Shown here: in pieces, positions 1 to 50,209 of the stretch | Position numbering within the stretch: position 1 is the first letter of the stretch | Layout of the letters: each line of letters begins with the position of its first letter | Assembly: GCF_000384315.1 (NCBI RefSeq) | Contig: NZ_ARVW01000001.1 | Coordinates: 6,555,001-6,619,000 of the forward strand | Length of the DNA stretch: 64,000 nucleotides | Reading direction: 5' to 3' | Origin: Amycolatopsis nigrescens CSC17Ta-90 | GTDB taxonomy: Bacteria; Actinomycetota; Actinomycetes; Mycobacteriales; Pseudonocardiaceae | Notes under the pieces: model-generated | Told to the model about the DNA's origin: nothing | The model's database searches: none | Seen by the model: the letters and a program-made list of their open reading frames with translations, nothing else | Made by a program: the position numbers and the translations under genes

Positions 1-222
1 TGGAACTACTGGTTGATGCCGGCGTCTGGTGATGCCTGCGCGTGTGAGTACTGGCCCTTTGGGGTCGTGGAAAGCGTGATGCGGGGTTGGTGGGTGTTGG
101 TGTTCATTGGCATGCTGTTGGGTCCTGAGGCAACACGCCTTGGGGTCATCTGATCCTTCGGAGTTGTTGTTTCGTGGGTGTGGTGTTTGAGAACTGTAGA
201 GTGGATGCGAGCATCTTTGTGG
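1..222 (+). other. 16S-23S rRNA internal spacer (partial) with boxA-like antitermination region
   Basis: This is the stretch directly upstream of the 23S rRNA. It carries the hallmarks of an actinobacterial rRNA spacer: TTGGGTCCTGAGGCAACACG near 117-137, and TGTTTGAGAACTGTAGAGTG followed by GCGAGCATCTTTGTGGTCAAG running into the 23S start. The TGTTTGAGAACT part resembles the boxA antiterminator found before 23S genes. No tRNA gene is visible in the part shown, and the 16S gene lies outside the window. Confidence 0.8.
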
Positions 223-3342
<3,120 letters not shown>

Positions 3343-3377
3343 CACAAACATGCTACGCATCCGCTCTACAGCTCTGA

Positions 3378-3424
3378 AACACCACACCACCCCGCAGCAA
3401 CTATGTGGGCGGGGTTGTGGTGTT
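3378..3424 (+). other. Hairpin in the 23S-5S spacer (rRNA processing stem)
   Basis: The left arm AACACCACACCACCCCGC (3378-3395) pairs with GCGGGGTTGTGGTGTT (3409-3424), with a two-base bulge and a 13-nt loop. It sits 7 nt before the 5S gene, where a processing stem for RNase cleavage of the rRNA precursor would be expected. That role is inferred from position. Confidence 0.6.
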
Positions 3425-3430
3425 GATAGA

Positions 3431-3548
3431 GTTACGGTGGTCATGGCGGCAGGGAAACGCCCGGTCCCATTCCGAACCCGGAAGCTAAGCCTGCCAGCGC
3501 CGATGGTACTGCACCCGAAGGGGTGTGGGAGAGTAGGACACCGCCGAA
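3431..3548 (+). rRNA. rrf: 5S ribosomal RNA
   Basis: An 118-nt 5S rRNA starting GTTACGGTGGTCATGGCGGC. It has the conserved CCCGGTCCCATTCCGAACCCG (near 3460-3480) and GGGTGTGGGAGAGTAGGACACC (near 3521-3542). It is the last gene of the rRNA operon and is followed by a terminator 10 nt downstream. Confidence 0.96.
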
Positions 3549-3557
3549 CACCCTTTC

Positions 3558-42262: not shown

Positions 42263-43600
42263 CTACGCGAGCGGCGTGCGAAGCGGGATGTGCACCAGAT
42301 CGGGACGGCCGGCCGGGGAACCAGCACCGACCCAGTGCGCGAGCCGTTCCGGGGTGAACAGCTCGTCGATCGCCATGCAGGCGGCGCCGACCAAACCGGC
42401 CTGGTCGCTCAGCGTGGACCTGGCGATCCGCAGCTCCCTGGTGGCCAGCGGCAGCGAGCGCCGGTAGACCGTTTCGCGCAGCGCGGCCAGCAGCAGGTCG
42501 CCCGCGCCGGCCACGCCGCCGCCGATGATCACCAGCGCCGGGTTGTAGAAGCTGACCAGGGTGGCCAGCAGGCTGCCGATCAACCGGCCCGCCCTGGTCA
42601 GCAGCTCGACCGAAGTGCGGTCGCCGCGCTGCGCCGCGGCGGAGATGTCGGCCGCGGTGAGCACGCCCTGCTCGGACAGCCGCGCGGCGAGGATCTCGCT
42701 GCGGCCCTCTTCGGCGGCGGCCAGCCCGTCCCTGGCCAGCGCGGCGCCGCCGGCGAACGCTTCCAGGCAGCCGGTGTTGCCGCACCGGCAGACCACCTGC
42801 GGGTCGTCCGCCACGGCGGCGTGCCCGATGTCGCCGGCGCAGCCCTGGCTGCCGCGGTGCAGCTGCCCGCCGGAGATCAGGCCGGCGCCGATACCGGTGC
42901 CGATCTTGATGTAGAGGATGTCGCGCTGGCCCTTGGCCGAACCGGCCCGCAGCTCGCCCAGCGCCATCGCGTTCACCTCGTTGTCCACCCACACCGGCGC
43001 GGAGAACCTGACGGCCAGCCGGTCGCGGACGCCGTAGCCGTCCCAGCCGGGCATGATCGGCGGCGCGCTCGGCCTGCCGGTGGCGAACTCGACCGGGCCG
43101 GGCAGCCCGATGCCGATGCCCCAGACCTCCGCCTGAGTGCCGCCCGCGTCCGCGGCGATCCGGTCGAGCAGGCGCACGAACAGCTCCTCGACGTGGCCGA
43201 GCACGATCTCCGGGCCGAGTGCGATGTCGGTGGGCTCCTCGAGCTCCGCCAGCACCGTCCCGGACAGATCCACCACGCCGACCCCGACGCTCGTCGCGCC
43301 GAGCTCCGCGGTGAGCACCACCCCGGCCCGCGCGCGGAAGCGCAGCTCGCGCGGTGCCCGGCCGCCGCTGGACGGCCCGAGCGGCCCTTCCTCCAGCAGC
43401 CCACAGTCGGTCAGCTGGGTGACGCGCTGGGTGACCACGGTCCGGCCGAGCCCGGCCAGCCTGCCGATTTCCGGGCGGGTGCGCGCGGCTCCGGTGCGCA
43501 CCAGATCCAGCACGGTGGCCAGGCTGTCCACCTGCTCCGGCGTCAACGCGGGGGAGTTCTGCGCTGTTCGCGACAACTGCATCCGCACATCTTCCAGCAT
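42263..43600 (-). CDS. ROK-family transcriptional regulator
   Basis: 445 residues. An N-terminal winged helix (about 25-80, LATVLDLVRTGAARTRPEIG then RLAGLGRTVVTQRVTQLTDCG) is fused to a ROK sugar-kinase-like domain with WGIGIGLPGPVEF, IKIGTGIGAGLISGG and the zinc loop CRCGNTGCLEAFAGG. Such proteins repress carbohydrate genes and are released by sugars or sugar phosphates. An ATG six codons inside (43582) has the better ribosome binding site (GGAAG, 8 nt). It faces away from the ABC-F gene. The tandem GH95-like genes further on could be its targets, but nothing in the sequence proves this. Confidence 0.92.
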   Translation of the reverse strand: MLEDVRMQLSRTAQNSPALTPEQVDSLATVLDLVRTGAARTRPEIGRLAGLGRTVVTQRVTQLTDCGLLEEGPLGPSSGGRAPRELRFRARAGVVLTAELGATSVGVGVVDLSGTVLAELEEPTDIALGPEIVLGHVEELFVRLLDRIAADAGGTQAEVWGIGIGLPGPVEFATGRPSAPPIMPGWDGYGVRDRLAVRFSAPVWVDNEVNAMALGELRAGSAKGQRDILYIKIGTGIGAGLISGGQLHRGSQGCAGDIGHAAVADDPQVVCRCGNTGCLEAFAGGAALARDGLAAAEEGRSEILAARLSEQGVLTAADISAAAQRGDRTSVELLTRAGRLIGSLLATLVSFYNPALVIIGGGVAGAGDLLLAALRETVYRRSLPLATRELRIARSTLSDQAGLVGAACMAIDELFTPERLAHWVGAGSPAGRPDLVHIPLRTPLA

Positions 43601-43647
43601 CGGCCCGCCGGTCGCTCGGATACCTGGGTCTGCCCGGAGAAAACCAG

Positions 43648-43677
43648 GTGACGGTCGTTCGAGTGATCGGTTAACCT
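43648..43677 (+). promoter_or_regulatory. Promoter of the ABC-F leader transcript
   Basis: GTGACG (43648-43653), an 18-bp spacer and TAACCT (43672-43677) form a good promoter. The -10 box ends 6 nt before the ATG of the leader peptide, so the transcript should begin at or next to that ATG. An A-rich run (AGAAAA, 43638-43643) lies just upstream of the -35, the place where WhiB7 recognises AT-rich DNA in antibiotic-responsive promoters; that link is speculative. Confidence 0.6.
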
Positions 43678-43683
43678 GGATTC

Positions 43684-43707
43684 ATGAGCTACCAGTTCTA
43701 CCTCTGA
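43684..43707 (+). CDS. Leader peptide MSYQFYL of the ABC-F gene
   Basis: A seven-residue reading frame, ATG to TGA, begins 6 nt after a -10 box and so is probably translated from a leaderless mRNA. Its last sense codon, stop codon and next three bases (43702-43710) are the exact complement, with one G-U, of the bases around the downstream ribosome binding site (43761-43769). Short leader peptides of this kind sense ribosome-targeting antibiotics by stalling. Translation has not been shown; the case rests on geometry and pairing. Confidence 0.6.
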   Translation: MSYQFYL

Positions 43708-43769
43708 TTCTCGGGCCGGCCCTTCTCGCGTCGATGCCCCGTGTTCTTTTCACGTACCCTGAATCGGAG
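43702..43769 (+). promoter_or_regulatory. Translational attenuator: leader end pairs with the ABC-F ribosome binding site
   Basis: CTCTGATTC (43702-43710) pairs over all nine positions with GAATCGGAG (43761-43769), which contains the GGAG (43766-43769) of the ABC-F gene, 8 nt before its TTG. In this helix the binding site is hidden. A ribosome stalled at the end of the leader would cover the left strand and free it. Inside the 50-nt loop are smaller hairpins (GGGCCGGCCC at 43713-43722; CGTG/CACG at 43740-43754). Confidence 0.6.
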
Positions 43770-43777
43770 TAGAACTC

Positions 43778-45421
43778 TTGCTGTCCCAGGAAAATCCTGT
43801 AACCCTGCCCGGAAAACGGGCCCATCTGAGCGCCGAGCACCTGAGCAAGGGCTTCGAGTCGCGCGCCGTGCTGTCCGACGTGTCGCTGACCGTCGGTGCC
43901 GGCCGCCGGCTCGGGGTGGTCGGCGAGAACGGCAGCGGCAAGACCACGCTGCTGAACATCCTGGCCGGCACCCTGGAACCGGACGGTGGCACCGTCACCC
44001 GGCACGGCTCGGTGGCCGTTGCCGGGCAGGAACTGCCCTTCGAGGAGGCCGACACGATCTCCTCGCTGCTGGACGTCGCGCTCGCCGGTGTCCGGGCCGC
44101 GCTCGCCGAACTGGACGCGGCTTCGGTCGCGCTGGCCGAGGGTGAAACCGGTGCGGAGGACCGGTTCGCCGCCGCGCTCGCGCAGGCCGAACGGCTGGAG
44201 GCGTGGGACGCCGAGCGACGGGCCGATCTCGCGCTGGACGGTCTCGGCGCGCCGAGCGACCGGAACCGGCGGCTGGCCGAGCTGTCGGTGGGCCAGCGGT
44301 ACCGGGTCCGGCTGGCCTGCCTGCTCGCCGAGCGGGTGGACATCCTGCTGCTGGACGAGCCGACCAACCACCTCGACGCGGGCGGGCTGGCCTACCTGAC
44401 CGAGTGCCTGCGCGGCTACCCCGGCGCGGTGGTGCTGGTCAGCCACGACCGGATGCTGCTGGAGCAGGTCTGCGGTTCGCTGCTCGACCTCGATCCCAAC
44501 GCCGACGGCGCGGCCGTGGTCTACGGCGGCGGCTATTCCGGCTACAAGAAGGCGAAGGCCGTCGAACGGGTGCGCTGGCAGCAGCGTTTTGCCCTGGAGT
44601 GCGCCGAGGCCGAGCAGCTCGCGCAGGACCTGCGTGCCGCGGAGAACCGGCTGATCTCGGCATGGCGGCCGGAGAAGGGGCACAACAAGCACGGCAGGGC
44701 GACGCACGCGCCGAGCAGGCTGCACAGCGTGCGGCGGCGGCTGGACGAGCTGACCGCGAACCGGGTCGCCCGGCCGCCGGAGCCGCTCCGGTTCAGCTGT
44801 CCCGACCTGCCGAAGCAGGGCCTCGGCGCGGTGCTCACCGCGGCCGGTGTGGTGGTGCCGGGACGGCTCGCGCTGTCCGGTTCGGACACCGTGGCACTGT
44901 CCACAGGGGACAGGCTGGTGGTCTCCGGCCCGAACGGTGCCGGTAAGTCGACCTTGCTCGGTGTGCTCGCCGGGCGGCTGGAACCGGCGTCCGGCTCGGT
45001 GTGGCGGGCGAAGTCGGCCAGGGTGGAACTGCTCGCCCAGGAGTCGGAGTTCGCCGAGCACGACCGAACCCCGGCCGAGCTGTACTCCGCGCTTGCGGAC
45101 CGGCTGGTGCTGCACGGCGCGCTGAGCGCCGGGCAGATCGTCGGGCTCGGCGAGCTCGGGCTGCTCTCCGCCGCGGACCGGCACCGTCCGGTCGCGCGGC
45201 TGTCCACCGGGCAGCGGCGGCGGTTGTCGCTGGCGATGCTGCTGCTGCGGGCGCCGCACGTGCTGCTGCTGGACGAGCCGACGAACCACCTGTCCATCGC
45301 GCTGGTGGACGAACTCACCGAGGCGATCCGCCGGACGCCGGGTGCGGTGGTGGTGGCCACCCACGACCGGCAGCTGCGCGCCGACCTCGACGACTGGCCG
45401 GCACTGGAGCTGGCCGCCTGA
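43778..45421 (+). CDS. ABC-F ATPase, probable ribosome-protection antibiotic resistance factor
   Basis: 547 residues with two ABC cassettes and no membrane domain. Walker A GENGSGKTTLLNILAG (about 51-66) and GPNGAGKSTLLGVLAG. Signatures LSVGQRYRVRLA and LSTGQRRRLSLA. Walker B LLLDEPTNHLD and LLLDEPTNHLS. Between them (about 245-345) lies a charged linker helix pair, the part that enters the ribosomal P/E region in antibiotic-resistance ABC-F proteins. The TTG start with GGAG 8 nt upstream is masked by the attenuator helix. By family it likely dislodges macrolide-, lincosamide- or streptogramin-type drugs; the drug cannot be named from sequence. Confidence 0.88.
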   Translation: MLSQENPVTLPGKRAHLSAEHLSKGFESRAVLSDVSLTVGAGRRLGVVGENGSGKTTLLNILAGTLEPDGGTVTRHGSVAVAGQELPFEEADTISSLLDVALAGVRAALAELDAASVALAEGETGAEDRFAAALAQAERLEAWDAERRADLALDGLGAPSDRNRRLAELSVGQRYRVRLACLLAERVDILLLDEPTNHLDAGGLAYLTECLRGYPGAVVLVSHDRMLLEQVCGSLLDLDPNADGAAVVYGGGYSGYKKAKAVERVRWQQRFALECAEAEQLAQDLRAAENRLISAWRPEKGHNKHGRATHAPSRLHSVRRRLDELTANRVARPPEPLRFSCPDLPKQGLGAVLTAAGVVVPGRLALSGSDTVALSTGDRLVVSGPNGAGKSTLLGVLAGRLEPASGSVWRAKSARVELLAQESEFAEHDRTPAELYSALADRLVLHGALSAGQIVGLGELGLLSAADRHRPVARLSTGQRRRLSLAMLLLRAPHVLLLDEPTNHLSIALVDELTEAIRRTPGAVVVATHDRQLRADLDDWPALELAA

Positions 45422-45427
45422 CGGTAG

Positions 45428-45541
45428 ACATCGGATGTATGTGCGGCTCTATGGGTGAAGGTGGTGGCCAAAACGGGGATATTTCTGCAAACATGCAGAG
45501 CGTCAGTTCGTTGATGAGCTGACACTGTGCTGAAACATAGT
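45428..45541 (+). promoter_or_regulatory. Operator-like palindrome and promoter of the GH95-like gene pair
   Basis: ACATCGGATGT (45428-45438) is a perfect 11-bp palindrome of the kind bound by GntR-type regulators. Further down, TTGATG (45511-45516), a 19-bp spacer and CATAGT (45536-45541) could be the promoter; the -10 ends 6 nt before GTG 45548. No GntR gene lies nearby. The only sugar-type regulator close by is the ROK protein. Confidence 0.4.
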
Positions 45542-45547
45542 ATGACT

Positions 45548-47875
45548 GTGGAGGCCCAAGTGCCTGAGCTTTCCCGGCGAACCCTGCTCAGGGGCGCCTC
45601 CGTGGTTGCCGGGACGGCCGCGCTCGGCGGCTGGTGGTCCGCCCCACCGGCCGCCGGGCAGGCCATCGGTCAGGCTGCCGCGGTCGGGATTCATCAGCGC
45701 ATCGCGACCGATGCGCGGATGTTGTGGAAGCGCTTACCGGACGGCTGGCAGACCGGTCCGTTCCTGGCCAACGGCAGGCTCGGGGTGCAGGTCTACGGCG
45801 GCGCCACCCCGCGGTCGCTGAAGTTCATGCTCAGCCACTCGCAGGTGCAGGACCAGCGCGGGCACTGGGAGGCGGCGATCGGCCTGTCCCGGCTGCCGAT
45901 CGGCTACCTCACCCTGGAGCTGGCCGGCGCGATCACCGCGGTCGACTGGCAACTGGACCTGTGGAACGCCGAATTGTCCGGCACCATCACCACGACCCGG
46001 GGCAGCGTGGCCTTCTCCGCGCTGGTGCACAACGAAAGCAGCGTGCTGCTGGTGTCCACCACGCCGAGCGCCGGCGAGGAGGCGGCCGCGTGGTCGTTTA
46101 CCCACCTGCGCTCGGCGACCACCAGGACCATCCGCCTGCCACCGGACTACGTGGCCAATCCCGACCCGGCCCGCGGCAGCGCCGGACCGGTCGAGTACAG
46201 CGAACAGCCCATGCTGGCCGGCGGTGGCTACACCACGGCGTGGCGGGAACGGCGCTCCGGCACGAGACGGCTGCTGGCCGCGACTGTGGCTTACAGCTTC
46301 CCGGAGCGGACCGCGACCGCGGACGCCGTGCGGGCCGTGCGCCGCGCGCTGGCCACCGATCCCGACCACCTGGTGGACCGGCATCGCCGCTGGTGGAACG
46401 CGTTCTATCGGCGCAGCCTGGTCTCGGTGCCGGACAAGCGGGTGCAGTCCTTCTACTGGATCCAGCTGTACAAGATGGCGGCCGCGACCAGGGCGGACGG
46501 GCCGGTGGTTGCGGAGTGGGGGCCGTGGTTCCCCGAGGTCGGCAACAGCTGGACCGCGGTCTGGTGGAACCTCAACGTCCAGGTGGCCTACCCGCTGGTC
46601 AACGGCGCGAACCACGCCGAGTTGGACGCGGTGACCGAGACCTTCCGCCGGGACCACCGCAACCTCGAACTGTCCGTGCCGCCGGCCTACCGGGACGGGC
46701 GGACCTACGCCCTTTCGCATCCGGGCGACTGGCGGCTGCGGCCCGGCGGCACCCGCACGGTCGGGATTCCCGGCAGCACGTCGAAGACCGACCAGACCGG
46801 CAACCTCATCTGGGGCTTGCACAACGTCTGGCTGGCCTACCGGCACAGCATGGACGACGCGGTGCTGCGGGACGTGCTGCGCCCGGTGCTGACCAAGGCG
46901 GTCAACTTCTACCGGCACTTCCTCACCGAAGGCACCGACGGCAGGCTGCACCTGCCGCTGACCCGTTCGCCGGAGTACGCCGACGCCGCCGACTGCAGCT
47001 ACGACCTCTCGCTGATCCGCTGGGGCTGCGCGACCCTGCTGGAGAGCACCCGGCGGCTGCGGCTGAGCGATCCGCTGGAGCCGGTCTGGCGGGACATCCT
47101 GACCAGGCTGGTGCCGTACCACCAGGACGCCGCCGGGGTGCTGATCGGTGACGGCGTGCCGCTTTCGGCTTCACACCGCCATTTCTCGCACCTGCTCTGG
47201 CTCCATCCGTTGCGGGAGAAGCGCTGGGACAACCCGGCCGACCGGGAGCTGATGAGCCGCAGCTTCGCGCACTGGGTGAGCATGCAGGACGCCTGGCACG
47301 GCTACAGCTACGCGGCCGCGTCCTCGATGTCCTCGGTGATGGGCGAACCGGAAGAGGCCCTGCGGTACCTGAAGTTCTTCCTGGACGGCAACGTGGTCGC
47401 GAAGACCCAGCTCACCCCGAACACGATGTACCGGGAGGGCTCGAACCTCGCGATCGAGAGCCCGCTCGCCGCCGCGCAGTCCGTGCTGGACATGCTGGTG
47501 CAGGGCTCCGGCGGGGTGCTGAAGGTGTTTCCCTCGGTGTCGTCGGGCTGGGCGGACGCGTCGATCGAGGGGCTGCGGGCCGAAGGTGCCTTCGTGGTGG
47601 ACGCGTCCCGCCGGGAGGGGGCGACCGAATGGGTGCGGGTGCACAGCGAGGCCGGTGAGCCACTCCTGTTGCGGCACGGCGTACCCGGCGAGATCGAGGT
47701 CCGCGACCGTCGCGGCCGTCTGCTGCGCTGGCGGGAACGGGACGCCGAAACCATCGAGATTCCCTTGCGACGCGGCGAATCCGCGGTGGTGACCAGGCGC
47801 GGCCACCGGCCGGACCTGGCGCCCCGTGACGTACCGGCGAACGCGGCGGCACCGGCATGGGGACTGCCCGGCTGA
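45548..47875 (+). CDS. Tat-exported GH95-like glycoside hydrolase, first of a tandem pair
   Basis: 775 residues. Twin-arginine signal ELSRRTLLRGASVVAGTAAL (about 7-26). An N-terminal beta-sandwich (to about 300) precedes an (alpha/alpha)6 domain with WWNLNVQVAYPL, the NxN pair that in GH95 fucosidases replaces a catalytic base, then LTRSPEYADAADCSYDL with the Glu expected to be the general acid, and RHFSHLLWLHPL. A C-terminal beta domain closes it. GH95 enzymes cleave alpha-1,2-L-fucosyl or L-galactosyl bonds; the true substrate is unknown. Start: GTG 45548 fits the -10 box, while GTG 45560 has GGAGG 5 nt upstream; both leave the Tat signal intact. Confidence 0.8.
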   Translation: MEAQVPELSRRTLLRGASVVAGTAALGGWWSAPPAAGQAIGQAAAVGIHQRIATDARMLWKRLPDGWQTGPFLANGRLGVQVYGGATPRSLKFMLSHSQVQDQRGHWEAAIGLSRLPIGYLTLELAGAITAVDWQLDLWNAELSGTITTTRGSVAFSALVHNESSVLLVSTTPSAGEEAAAWSFTHLRSATTRTIRLPPDYVANPDPARGSAGPVEYSEQPMLAGGGYTTAWRERRSGTRRLLAATVAYSFPERTATADAVRAVRRALATDPDHLVDRHRRWWNAFYRRSLVSVPDKRVQSFYWIQLYKMAAATRADGPVVAEWGPWFPEVGNSWTAVWWNLNVQVAYPLVNGANHAELDAVTETFRRDHRNLELSVPPAYRDGRTYALSHPGDWRLRPGGTRTVGIPGSTSKTDQTGNLIWGLHNVWLAYRHSMDDAVLRDVLRPVLTKAVNFYRHFLTEGTDGRLHLPLTRSPEYADAADCSYDLSLIRWGCATLLESTRRLRLSDPLEPVWRDILTRLVPYHQDAAGVLIGDGVPLSASHRHFSHLLWLHPLREKRWDNPADRELMSRSFAHWVSMQDAWHGYSYAAASSMSSVMGEPEEALRYLKFFLDGNVVAKTQLTPNTMYREGSNLAIESPLAAAQSVLDMLVQGSGGVLKVFPSVSSGWADASIEGLRAEGAFVVDASRREGATEWVRVHSEAGEPLLLRHGVPGEIEVRDRRGRLLRWRERDAETIEIPLRRGESAVVTRRGHRPDLAPRDVPANAAAPAWGLPG

Positions 47876-47902
47876 CTCAGCTGAAATCGGAGGTCGGAGA
47901 AC

Positions 47903-50209
47903 ATGGTCGAGTTCGATCGCAGGACGGTGCTCGGTGGCGCACTGGCCGGCCTCACCACCGGGCTGCTGCCGATGGGCACGGCTCAGGCGGAACCGGCGGT
48001 ACCCCTCGGCGTGTTCGGGGACGAACGCGGCTGGGCGGACTTCCTGGCCATGTCCGACCTGCGCTGGCGGCGCCTGCCGAAGACCTGGTATGAGGGACCG
48101 TTCCTGGGCAACGGTTTTCTCGGCTCCGGGATCTACGCGGAGCCGGGGGCGAACGCCGTGCGGTTCAACGTGCAGCACAGCCAGGTGCAGGACCACCGGC
48201 CCGAGTTCGGCTCGTTGTTCGGGCTGGCCAGGCTGCCGATCGGGTACTTCACGCTGGAGCCGGTCGGCGCGATCACCGGCATCGACTGGCGGCTGGACCT
48301 GTGGAACGCGGAGCTGTCCGGCACCATCACCACCACGGCGGGCGGCCTGAGCCTGCGCGCGATCATCCATAGTGGACAGTCGGTGCTCGCGGTCGAGGTG
48401 CGGCCGACCGAGGGCGAGCGGGACTTCCGCTGGGTGTTCCACCCGGCCGAGGCGGTCAGCCCGCGGACCGACCCGAAGTTCGGCAAGCCGCCGCCCGCCG
48501 GCTATGTGGCAAATCCGCCGGCCACCCTGGAGTCCTCCGGTGACCGGCGGCTGGCGGTGCAGGCACTGCTCGGCGGCGGCGAGCACGTGACCGCGTGGCG
48601 GGAGACCGTCCGCGGCTCCACGCGCACGCTGTACACCGCGGTCGCCTGGTCCCATCCCGCACGCACCGCGGCCGGTGCCGCGCTGCGGATGCTCGCCGAG
48701 GCGAGCAGGCCGTTCGACCGGCTCGCGGACGGCCACCGGCGCTGGTGGCACGACTACTACCGGCGGAGCTTCCTGTCCATTCCGGACCGGAGGCTGCAGG
48801 CGTTCTACTGGATCCAGCTGTACAAGGTGGCCGCCGCGGCGCGCCGGGAGGCGCCGGTGATGGCCACCTGCGGGCCGTGGCTGGAACCGACCCCGTGGCC
48901 GGCCACCTGGTGGAACCTCAACGTGCAGCTGGAATACTGGCTGATCCACGGGTCCAACCACCTCGAGCTGGACGCGGTCACCCGTGCGTTGGACGAGTTC
49001 CGGCAGAACCTGCGCGACCAGGTCTCGGCGCCCTACCGCGCGGACTCCTACGGCATCCCGCGCACCACGGACATGCGGTTGCTCAACGGCGCGGGCAGCG
49101 GGACCTCCGGTTTCGCGGTGGGCATCCCCGGCCAGGAGAGCCCGACCCCGGAGGTCGGCAATCTCACCTGGGCGCTGCACAACGTCTGGCTGTCCTACCG
49201 GCACACGATGGACCCGCGCATCCTGCGGGACGTGCTGTTCCCGCTGCTGCGCGGGGCGATCGGCTACTACCTGCACTTCCTGGCTCCCGGTATGGACGGA
49301 AAGCTGCACCTGCCGTTCACCTTTTCCCCGGAGTACGGGGTGAACGCGCCGGACTGCACCTACGACCTGGCGCTGCTCCGCTGGGGCTGCCGGACCCTGC
49401 TTGACTCGGCGAACCTGCTCCGGATCGACGACCCGCTGGCGAAACGCTGGCGCGAGGTGCTCGCCAAGCTGGTCGACTACCCGGTGGACGCCAATGGCTA
49501 CATGATCGGCGCGGGAGTGCCGTTCGCCAAGTCGCACCGGCACTACTCGCACCTGCTGCAGGTGTACCCGCTCTACGAGATCACCTGGGAGCAGCCCGAG
49601 CACCGTCGGCTCATCGAGACTTCGCTCGGGCACTGGGTCGGTTTCGAAGGCGCCTTGCAGGGCTACACCTTCACCGGTGCGGCCTCGATGTCGGCGCAGA
49701 TGCTGCGCGGGGACAAGGCCGCGTTCTACCTGGACGAGCTGCAACGCCGGTTCATCCAGCCGAACACGATGTACAAGGAGTCCGGGCCGGTGATCGAGAC
49801 GCCGCTGTCCGCCGCGCAGTCGCTGCACGACATGCTGTGCCAGAGCTGGGGCGGGGTGATCCGGGTGTTCCCGGCGGTCCCGCCTTCCTGGGAAAGTGCC
49901 GCGCTGCACGACTTCCGCACCGAGGGCGCGTTCCTGCTGAGCGCGTCCCGCGAAGGTGGCCGGACCCGCTGGGTGCGCGTGCGCAGCGAGTCCGGTGCCC
50001 GCTGCGTGCTGCGGACCGGTATCGAAGGCGAGCCGGTGGTGCGGGACCGCTGGGGCAGGCCGAAGCGCTGGCGCCTGCTGCCCGGCGGCGACCTCGAAAT
50101 CGAGCTGCGGCGCGGAGAAGAGGCCGTGGTGCACCGGAAAGGCGACCGTCCGGACTTCCGGCTCGGCCCGGTCCCCGGCTCCCCGGTTCCACCTTGGGGT
50201 CTGCCCTGA
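47903..50209 (+). CDS. Tat-exported GH95-like glycoside hydrolase, second of the pair
   Basis: 768 residues, clearly a paralogue of the gene before it: the same blocks LARLPIGYFTLE, LDLWNAELSGTITTT, FYWIQLYK, WWNLNVQLEYWL (Asn338 and Asn340), FTFSPEYGVNAPDCTYDL (Glu477) and SHRHYSHLLQVYPL occur in order. Twin-arginine signal FDRRTVLGGALAGLTTGLLP, with a probable cleavage after GTAQA (about 25-29). A good purine-rich site (TCGGAGGTCGGAG) precedes the ATG by 6 nt. It starts 27 nt after the first copy, so the two form one operon that arose by old tandem duplication. They may act on different links of one glycan. Confidence 0.82.
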   Translation: MVEFDRRTVLGGALAGLTTGLLPMGTAQAEPAVPLGVFGDERGWADFLAMSDLRWRRLPKTWYEGPFLGNGFLGSGIYAEPGANAVRFNVQHSQVQDHRPEFGSLFGLARLPIGYFTLEPVGAITGIDWRLDLWNAELSGTITTTAGGLSLRAIIHSGQSVLAVEVRPTEGERDFRWVFHPAEAVSPRTDPKFGKPPPAGYVANPPATLESSGDRRLAVQALLGGGEHVTAWRETVRGSTRTLYTAVAWSHPARTAAGAALRMLAEASRPFDRLADGHRRWWHDYYRRSFLSIPDRRLQAFYWIQLYKVAAAARREAPVMATCGPWLEPTPWPATWWNLNVQLEYWLIHGSNHLELDAVTRALDEFRQNLRDQVSAPYRADSYGIPRTTDMRLLNGAGSGTSGFAVGIPGQESPTPEVGNLTWALHNVWLSYRHTMDPRILRDVLFPLLRGAIGYYLHFLAPGMDGKLHLPFTFSPEYGVNAPDCTYDLALLRWGCRTLLDSANLLRIDDPLAKRWREVLAKLVDYPVDANGYMIGAGVPFAKSHRHYSHLLQVYPLYEITWEQPEHRRLIETSLGHWVGFEGALQGYTFTGAASMSAQMLRGDKAAFYLDELQRRFIQPNTMYKESGPVIETPLSAAQSLHDMLCQSWGGVIRVFPAVPPSWESAALHDFRTEGAFLLSASREGGRTRWVRVRSESGARCVLRTGIEGEPVVRDRWGRPKRWRLLPGGDLEIELRRGEEAVVHRKGDRPDFRLGPVPGSPVPPWGLP

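Follow-up and report, generated by a model that had tools for sequence, protein, structure and literature searches.

In this study, we describe a candidate antibiotic-responsive switch in front of an ABC-F ATPase gene of Amycolatopsis nigrescens CSC17Ta-90. The window, that is, the whole stretch of DNA analyzed, comprises 64,000 nucleotides (contig NZ_ARVW01000001.1, positions 6,555,001 to 6,619,000), and all coordinates are counted from its first letter. The ABC-F gene occupies 43778..45421 on the forward strand, begins with a TTG codon and encodes a protein of 547 amino acids, whose assignment draws on its ABC_tran domains and on the protein tree. The upstream elements of interest lie on the same strand. 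A promoter with the -35 hexamer GTGACG (43648..43653) and, 18 bp 3' of it, the -10 hexamer TAACCT (43672..43677) is followed after 6 nt by a predicted leaderless open reading frame, MSYQFYL-UGA (43684..43707; ATG AGC TAC CAG TTC TAC CTC TGA), hereafter the leader. This promoter, the spacing of the ATG and the seven-codon frame had been given in a preliminary description of the DNA, and all of them were found again upon rereading positions 43648-43707. The Shine-Dalgarno (SD) sequence of the ABC-F gene, GGAG (43766..43769), lies entirely within an RNA helix that is predicted to mask it.

The left arm of the masking helix (43694..43710) runs from within leader codon 4 through the stop codon plus 3 nt, with one bulged C, and is present in both the minimum free energy and the centroid structures, while the right arm (43761..43776) is supported by folding and by co-variation with the leader across lineages. 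The nine pairs formerly proposed between 43702-43710 and 43761-43769 do exist, one of them a G-U pair, but they form only part of a longer helix of 16 pairs (one G-U) that stops one base short of the TTG at 43778. The RNA from 43684 to 43800 folds with -40.4 kcal/mol versus -26.5 +/- 3.3 kcal/mol for shuffled sequences (z = -4.2; none of 200 as good); once the leader and the 10 nt after it are removed, what is left is no more stable than its shuffled versions (z = 0.11). No known RNA family was found in window positions 43500-43900 up to an E value of 1.

The seven-residue leader is one of a family of tiny switches, probably drug-sensing, that occur in many relatives. Homologs of the ABC-F protein were sought in 150 relatives, of which 105 gave a match at E <= 1e-60, and in 394 genomes of the class, of which 46 did so at E <= 1e-100, the two sets sharing some genomes. 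From the first set all 54 matches of at least 444 bits were read, plus 17 weaker ones among the matches listed, and from the second 54 rows, with G304, G392 and G504 set aside. A total of 119 ABC-F loci were read, and since these were picked for similarity to the window ABC-F, fractions of 119 are not prevalences. We defined an FYL leader as a peptide of 6-10 residues that ends in [L/F/Y]-[F/Y]-L-stop and whose start codon shortly follows TAnnnT. Such an upstream open reading frame (uORF) was present at 56 of the 119 loci, with the start codon 6 nt (16 loci) or 7 nt (40 loci) past TAnnnT; this 6-7 nt spacing in 56/56 was seen under a search that demanded TAnnnT 5-9 nt before the start codon. 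A stricter definition again returned 56 of the 119 upstream regions, none in a background of 658,297 bases taken from gene bodies and opposite strands, and a single match on both strands of the window, at 43684. The peptides include MSYQFYL, MAYQFYL, VQQLFFL, VMQQLLFL, VIQHQLYL, MQYLYFL, VHLPLYL, MHLYFL (found also at a named Prauserella halophila locus), MCQSQLYL and MGFGYGVFYL, the stop codon is UGA in 53 of the 56, and by group codes the loci span 13 genera and 5 families.

At none of the 56 FYL loci was a tetramer resembling an SD seen 5-14 nt upstream of the leader start codon. The remark that a probably leaderless leader peptide as the sensor would be unusual needs correcting, in that a predicted leaderless start is the rule in the family. 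Likewise, the peptide had been said to match no leader that could be named, and it is true that no published class turned up; it is not a one-off, however, given the 56 loci that carry its class. The FYL leader class, a leaderless start as a presumed drug sensor and a split of leader classes along ABC-F clades were not found in the open-licence PubMed Central (PMC) literature searched. The preliminary description had named loss of the leader and its pairing from close relatives as evidence that would speak against the switch; in fact, a leader of this class is retained in each of the six closest relatives of the gene (L002-L007), and in five of them the binding site is fully masked by it. Moreover, a model of promoter and leader that used no protein information (30 sequences, run on 40 genomes) gave 16 matches at E < 1e-4. 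Fifteen stood before ABC-F genes at known FYL loci, two of these being rows of the model and most others near copies of rows, and one stood before a shortened ABC-F frame. Out of 42 model matches, the 16 strong ones were checked by coordinates or sequence, together with L157-L160, and the 22 weak ones were left out. No leader of the FYL kind was seen at L158-L160, three of the weaker matches. The match before the shortened frame is L133 (genome G022), where a VMQQLLFL promoter and leader precede a much shortened ABC-F reading frame.

The pairing of the SD with the leader could be followed at 55 leader loci (no SD was found for L071), 30 of which are of the general type of the window, whereas the other 25 carry VMQQLLFL, VIQHQLYL and variants (hereafter VM/VI type). 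The leader accounts for at least half of the SD pairing at 25 of the 30 loci of the window type, and when each leader was compared with 30 shuffles of itself, its pairing with the SD was better (p <= 0.05) at 18 of the 30, the window among them. A covarying helix, which the preliminary description had proposed to look for in related genomes, was borne out: across 23 hand-picked lineages, leader-SD duplexes averaged -16.5 kcal/mol when matched and -13.0 kcal/mol when swapped (z = -5.7; none of 5000 swaps as stable), and the same test on all 30 loci gave z = -6.5 (0/5000). For several leaders, the SDs of other loci are partners as good as their own or better (L003, rank 21 of 23; L034 and L062, rank 15; L044, rank 13). 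Automatic SD finding was unsuccessful at L071, L077 and L079 and put the SDs of L032 and L036 in the wrong place; the latter two were corrected only in the stalled-ribosome model described below, so that in the shuffle and swap tests both count against the hypothesis.

The window promoter is likely to be under WblC/WhiB7 control. The consensus of WblC-activated promoters has been given as GAAAWY, 3 bp, TKGMNN, 16-19 bp and TANNNT, and the transcripts mostly start 7 or 8 bp past the -10 (PMC7157823; here and below, published systems are compared as described in parts of the cited reports). In the window, a WblC/WhiB7-type box, GAAAAC (43639..43644, forward strand), matches GAAAWY at 6/6 positions and lies 3 bp upstream of the -35, which has one mismatch to TKGMNN, and the -10 fits TANNNT. 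Box and -35 together match 9 of 10 informative positions with a spacer of 18, and the frequency of scores of at least 9 in controls was 0.0. From the -10 to the A of the leader ATG the distance is 7 bp, which matches the usual start distance. Scores of at least 8/10 were obtained at 36 of the 56 FYL loci and at 11 of the 18 loci of a second leader class, termed RLR, compared with 0.3% of controls.

Leader class, as assigned here, is found to follow the ABC-F protein tree. The FYL label requires 3 changes on an unrooted FastTree built from the 119 proteins, versus a mean of 39.9 after shuffling (0 of 500 as low), and FYL versus RLR requires a single change. The RLR clade comprises 18 loci (L047-L049, L051, L053, L068-L070, L072, L073 and L075-L082; L053 assigned by hand) with predicted leaderless RLRxRR or related leaders, for example MYSCPVFMRLRTRR, all 7 nt past TAnnnT. 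Its leader-SD co-variation is weaker (15 loci; z = -1.9; 171 of 5000). R-L-R is a macrolide-arrest motif, and no Arg-x-Arg is present near the end of the window leader. A related leader, MYANAAQYAVRPWTRR, occurs at an uncultured Corynebacterium locus (L123). Because the RLR clade is placed between the window group (L001-L007) and the other FYL loci in the tree as drawn, FYL could either be ancestral or have originated on two occasions. Four rows of the joint FYL and RLR branch have no leader call (L052, L054, L055 and L074); by eye, L052 contains MRLRLAA, and at L054, an ABC-F on the FYL branch without a leader, the main gene itself appears leaderless after TATCGT.

In more distant ABC-Fs, very short uORFs (MRN, MKL, MES, VK, etc.) were labeled at 23 loci without a background control (L056-L059, L085, L087, L088, L090, L092, L093, L095-L097, L099-L102, L106, L107, L111, L112, L115 and L119), 19 of them exactly 9 nt past TAnnnT. 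One of these loci, L097, is the other ABC-F of the window genome, with the uORF MRN. No leader uORF was found in 18 of the 41 rows of this distant branch, or in 22 of the 119 loci overall. A second ABC-F group, 38% identical to that of the window, was reached through the leader model alone (L157, the next match, E = 0.0026). In this group (L157 and L162-L179), uORFs 7-8 nt past TAnnnT are present at 18 of 25 loci, 17 of the 18 leaders, which are hydrophobic and termed MG type, coming from close relatives within one genus: MGIFFTL (9), MGFFFYL (2), MGIFFNL (2), and MGFFFYM, MGTLFYL, MGIFYFYL, MGTLSFL and MGTLHFL (1 each).

We propose, with a probability of roughly 0.7, that the window holds a WblC-driven, leaderless translational attenuator in which a drug would arrest the ribosome late on the leader and thereby free the ABC-F start site. 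Two hallmarks of a translational attenuator are found, in that the leader is conserved as a peptide (56/119) and, in the window, the SD is sequestered by a helix involving the leader. The sequence itself shows the leader, how conserved it is and where it sits relative to the -10, as well as the helix, the co-variation and the promoter box; around these, the scheme places a predicted transcript start, translation, arrest, inducer and resistance function. The WblC/WhiB7-type promoter would place the 5' end of the mRNA on the first base of the leader start codon, so that the leader would have no 5' untranslated region (UTR) and would be initiated in leaderless fashion. As long as the mRNA is free, the SD region would be paired with the latter half of the leader together with its stop codon and the following 3 nt, and therefore little ABC-F would be made. 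A ribosome-targeting drug would then arrest the ribosome late on the leader, where it would cover the left arm, and the freed SD would allow translation of the ABC-F. The fixed hydrophobic tripeptide before the stop codon and the analogy with MsrDL, the leader of a streptococcal macrolide ABC-F gene, suggest that, through failed release, the ribosome would halt while its P site holds the last Leu codon.

A stalled-ribosome model, with an assumed ribosome footprint of 15 nt counted from the first P-site base, supports, for loci of the window type, the proposal of the preliminary description that a late stall frees the start site. At these 30 loci, it takes on average 8.7 kcal/mol to open the SD in the free RNA, 6.1 kcal/mol when a ribosome sits on codon 1 and 3.9 kcal/mol when the P site holds the last codon; between the free RNA and this last state, the drop is 3 kcal/mol or more at 24 of them. 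In the window, the cost is 10.5 kcal/mol free, 7.5 at codon 1, 6.9 at codon 2, 4.1-5.4 from codon 3 onward and 4.4 at the last codon; thus, the model predicts that a stall early on the leader is insufficient and that one further along is of help.

Several observations weigh against this interpretation. Release fails in the model at 6 of the 30 loci of the window type (L003, L033, L046, L062, L064 and L067, gain below 3 kcal/mol) and at 24 of the 25 VM/VI loci, where only L016 reaches a drop of at least 3 kcal/mol; these failures are the reason why our confidence in the full mechanism stays at the value given above. At the VM/VI loci (L008-L016, L018-L022, L024-L030, L060, L061, L065 and L066) opening the SD costs on average 7.0 kcal/mol in free RNA, 9.4 with the ribosome on codon 1 and 7.7 with it on the last codon, and the leader does not sequester the SD, its share of the pairing being at most 0.09. 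In addition, leader shuffles were beaten at p <= 0.05 at only 18 of all 55 testable loci, the close relative L003 has the leader without full masking of the binding site, the WblC-type box scores below 8 at 20 of the 56 FYL loci, many of the 56 are near copies with only 34 distinct leader DNAs among them, and the motif of the second ABC-F group is looser, as it admits T or N at the penultimate position and includes a leader with a final M. A longer masked stretch (from stop+6 up to stop+15) was tried as a rescue for the VM/VI loci and rejected, the model still not fitting: with masking to stop+9/10 or beyond the mean cost is ~6.5 kcal/mol, ~3 kcal/mol below that with stop+6 and ~0.5 below the free value of 7.0. 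The VM/VI leaders are conserved despite this misfit. At these loci the SD is able to pair with CCUCC 11-12 nt past the leader stop, and at VMQQLLFL loci the leader end is able to pair with GAGGAAC overlapping the stop.

In the FYL leaders, peptide and RNA both seem to be under constraint. The last residue is L, the penultimate F or Y and the third-last L, F or Y in 56/56; on the tree, the last Leu codon changed at least 4 times without a change of residue, the stop codon twice and the leader length at least 8 times. It might be argued that the F/Y-L end is a by-product of codons that pair with the SD (UUC/UAC CUC UGA), in which case there would be no arrest motif and the leader would act as a general sensor of translation stress, any slowing of the ribosome opening the start site. 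Leader and SD do co-vary, the SD center pairs most probably with the middle of the last Leu codon at 15 of 55 loci, and this codon is CTC in 49 of the 56, compared with 34% of Leu codons in the ABC-F genes. The overuse of CTC means that part of the C-terminal conservation is due to RNA pairing, which also counts against the scheme we propose. However, the residue is constant at the 7 loci where the codon is CTG (5) or CTT (2), the SDs of L039 and L043 pair at earlier leader positions (-16 and -12) and LYL is still kept, and the 25 VM/VI loci, which pair their SD nearly all outside the leader, nevertheless keep LFL, FFL, LYL or FYL. Moreover, the neighboring clade has RLR leaders alongside GGAG-type SDs, so that the need for SD pairing alone does not give FYL. 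We consider a mere by-product, without an arrest motif, to be a rather unlikely explanation of the peptide.

We regard it as very unlikely that the leader instead governs an intrinsic terminator before the ABC-F gene, as has been reported for lmrC, msrD and are5sc. Transcription attenuation is a common mode for ABC-F genes (PMC12421871; PMC10314930; PMC8546547), and GC-rich hairpins are present between leader and gene in relatives such as L010; yet a scan, which GC-rich actinobacterial terminators may escape, detected no terminator-like hairpin with a T-run in 43601-43900, nor in the two relatives that it covered (L010 and L029), and the chief structure in the window sequesters the SD. Attenuation by amino acid starvation, with the ribosome reading Phe, Tyr or Leu codons, would agree with a window leader rich in F, Y and L, but these residues swap at the same positions, so that no single tRNA would be read, the downstream gene encodes an ABC-F, and the leaders of the neighboring clade are Arg-rich; this explanation is scarcely credible.

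More generally, it can be tentatively put forward, as an idea with somewhat less than an even chance, that [L/F/Y]-[F/Y]-L-stop defines a new and widespread class of drug-dependent arrest peptides, started leaderless and arresting at or near termination, which would control at least two separate uncharacterized groups of actinobacterial ABC-F genes atop WblC and would sense a ribosome-targeting antibiotic, or drug-context pair, other than that sensed by the RLR leaders. The FYL leaders are natural arrest-peptide candidates with fixed C-terminal residues that are matched to ABC-F groups, and thus the leader could be used to find the inducer and, probably, also the substrate drug of those ABC-Fs. 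They also open two questions to testing: can an antibiotic be sensed by an initiation complex of the leaderless (70S) kind, and do ABC-F subfamilies evolve together with a leader arrest code (FYL versus RLR)? If the scheme is true, WblC-driven resistance genes can bear a second, drug-specific gate.

The window ABC-F itself is a probable antibiotic-protection gene with a presumed resistance function; the protein has two ABC ATPase stretches (PF00005), the domain make-up required of an antibiotic-resistance ABC-F. Its nearest named relative is a protein of Amycolatopsis anabasis (79% identical). Membership in ARE4 (TlrC/CarA/OleB/SrmB) was considered and rejected, as the score against NCBIfam NF000171 is 358 bits versus a cut-off of 800; seven other ABC-F proteins tried scored 288-434 bits. 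The gene is flanked by a divergent ROK-family gene (42263-43600, reverse strand) and by two tandem genes with GH95 catalytic domains (45527-50209, forward strand). 23S and 5S rRNA genes occupy 221-3549, which explains why the first 4 kb of the window are lower in GC and skewed.

The closest known systems share parts of this arrangement. In translational attenuators of the ermC and cat type, arrest on a leader frees a sequestered SD; the window differs from them in leader sequence and gene, and its leader is predicted to lack an SD and forms the mask with its own codons. MsrDL, the msrD leader MYLIFM-UAA, is arrested at its stop codon by blocked release (PMC10314930), and its composition and length fit those of the window leader, both being very short, hydrophobic, aromatic and followed by an ABC-F gene; as described there, however, MsrDL works by transcription attenuation, has its own ribosome binding site (RBS) and prefers UAA, whereas the FYL leaders have no RBS and mostly UGA, and in the window no terminator was found and the mask is on the SD. 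The cplR uORF MR[I/M] of Clostridia likewise precedes an ABC-F gene with a sequestered SD, and its induction needs arrest on the uORF, as proposed here, in what has been termed translational attenuation (PMC10201436); there, the uORF is three codons long and lies in a 5' region of 212 nt, the SD is sequestered by a terminator hairpin rather than by a helix with leader codons, and the hosts are Firmicutes. Actinobacterial ABC-F genes under uORF control are also known from the Streptomyces ARE5 group, with are5scL1 (MLV) and tiaAL (MVGDDDISG), which are reported to respond to drugs, to have RBSs within 5' UTRs that measure 232 and 194 nt and to stall ribosomes at their start codons, and which are assigned, with one discrepancy in the case of tiaA, to transcription attenuation (PMC12421871). 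The AAF4 protein of S. lincolnensis, which rises with clindamycin (PMC8546547), may or may not be of the window ABC-F group. A leaderless short open reading frame as a sensor, as predicted in the window, has a counterpart in the cysteine-responsive poly-Cys uORFs of mycobacteria (Canestrari et al., 2020, as cited in PMC13236596), which sense Cys supply, whereas the window leader has no Cys run and its target is an ABC-F. Lastly, promoters of the WblC/WhiB7 regulon have the same layout of box, -35 and -10 and the same start distance as the window promoter (PMC7157823; PMC3905903); as described, they provide the transcriptional layer only, to which the window leader would add a second, post-transcriptional one. 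The FYL leader is thus a known kind of uORF control of ABC-F genes in a new form, distinguished by its leader class, its predicted leaderless start and its split along ABC-F clades.

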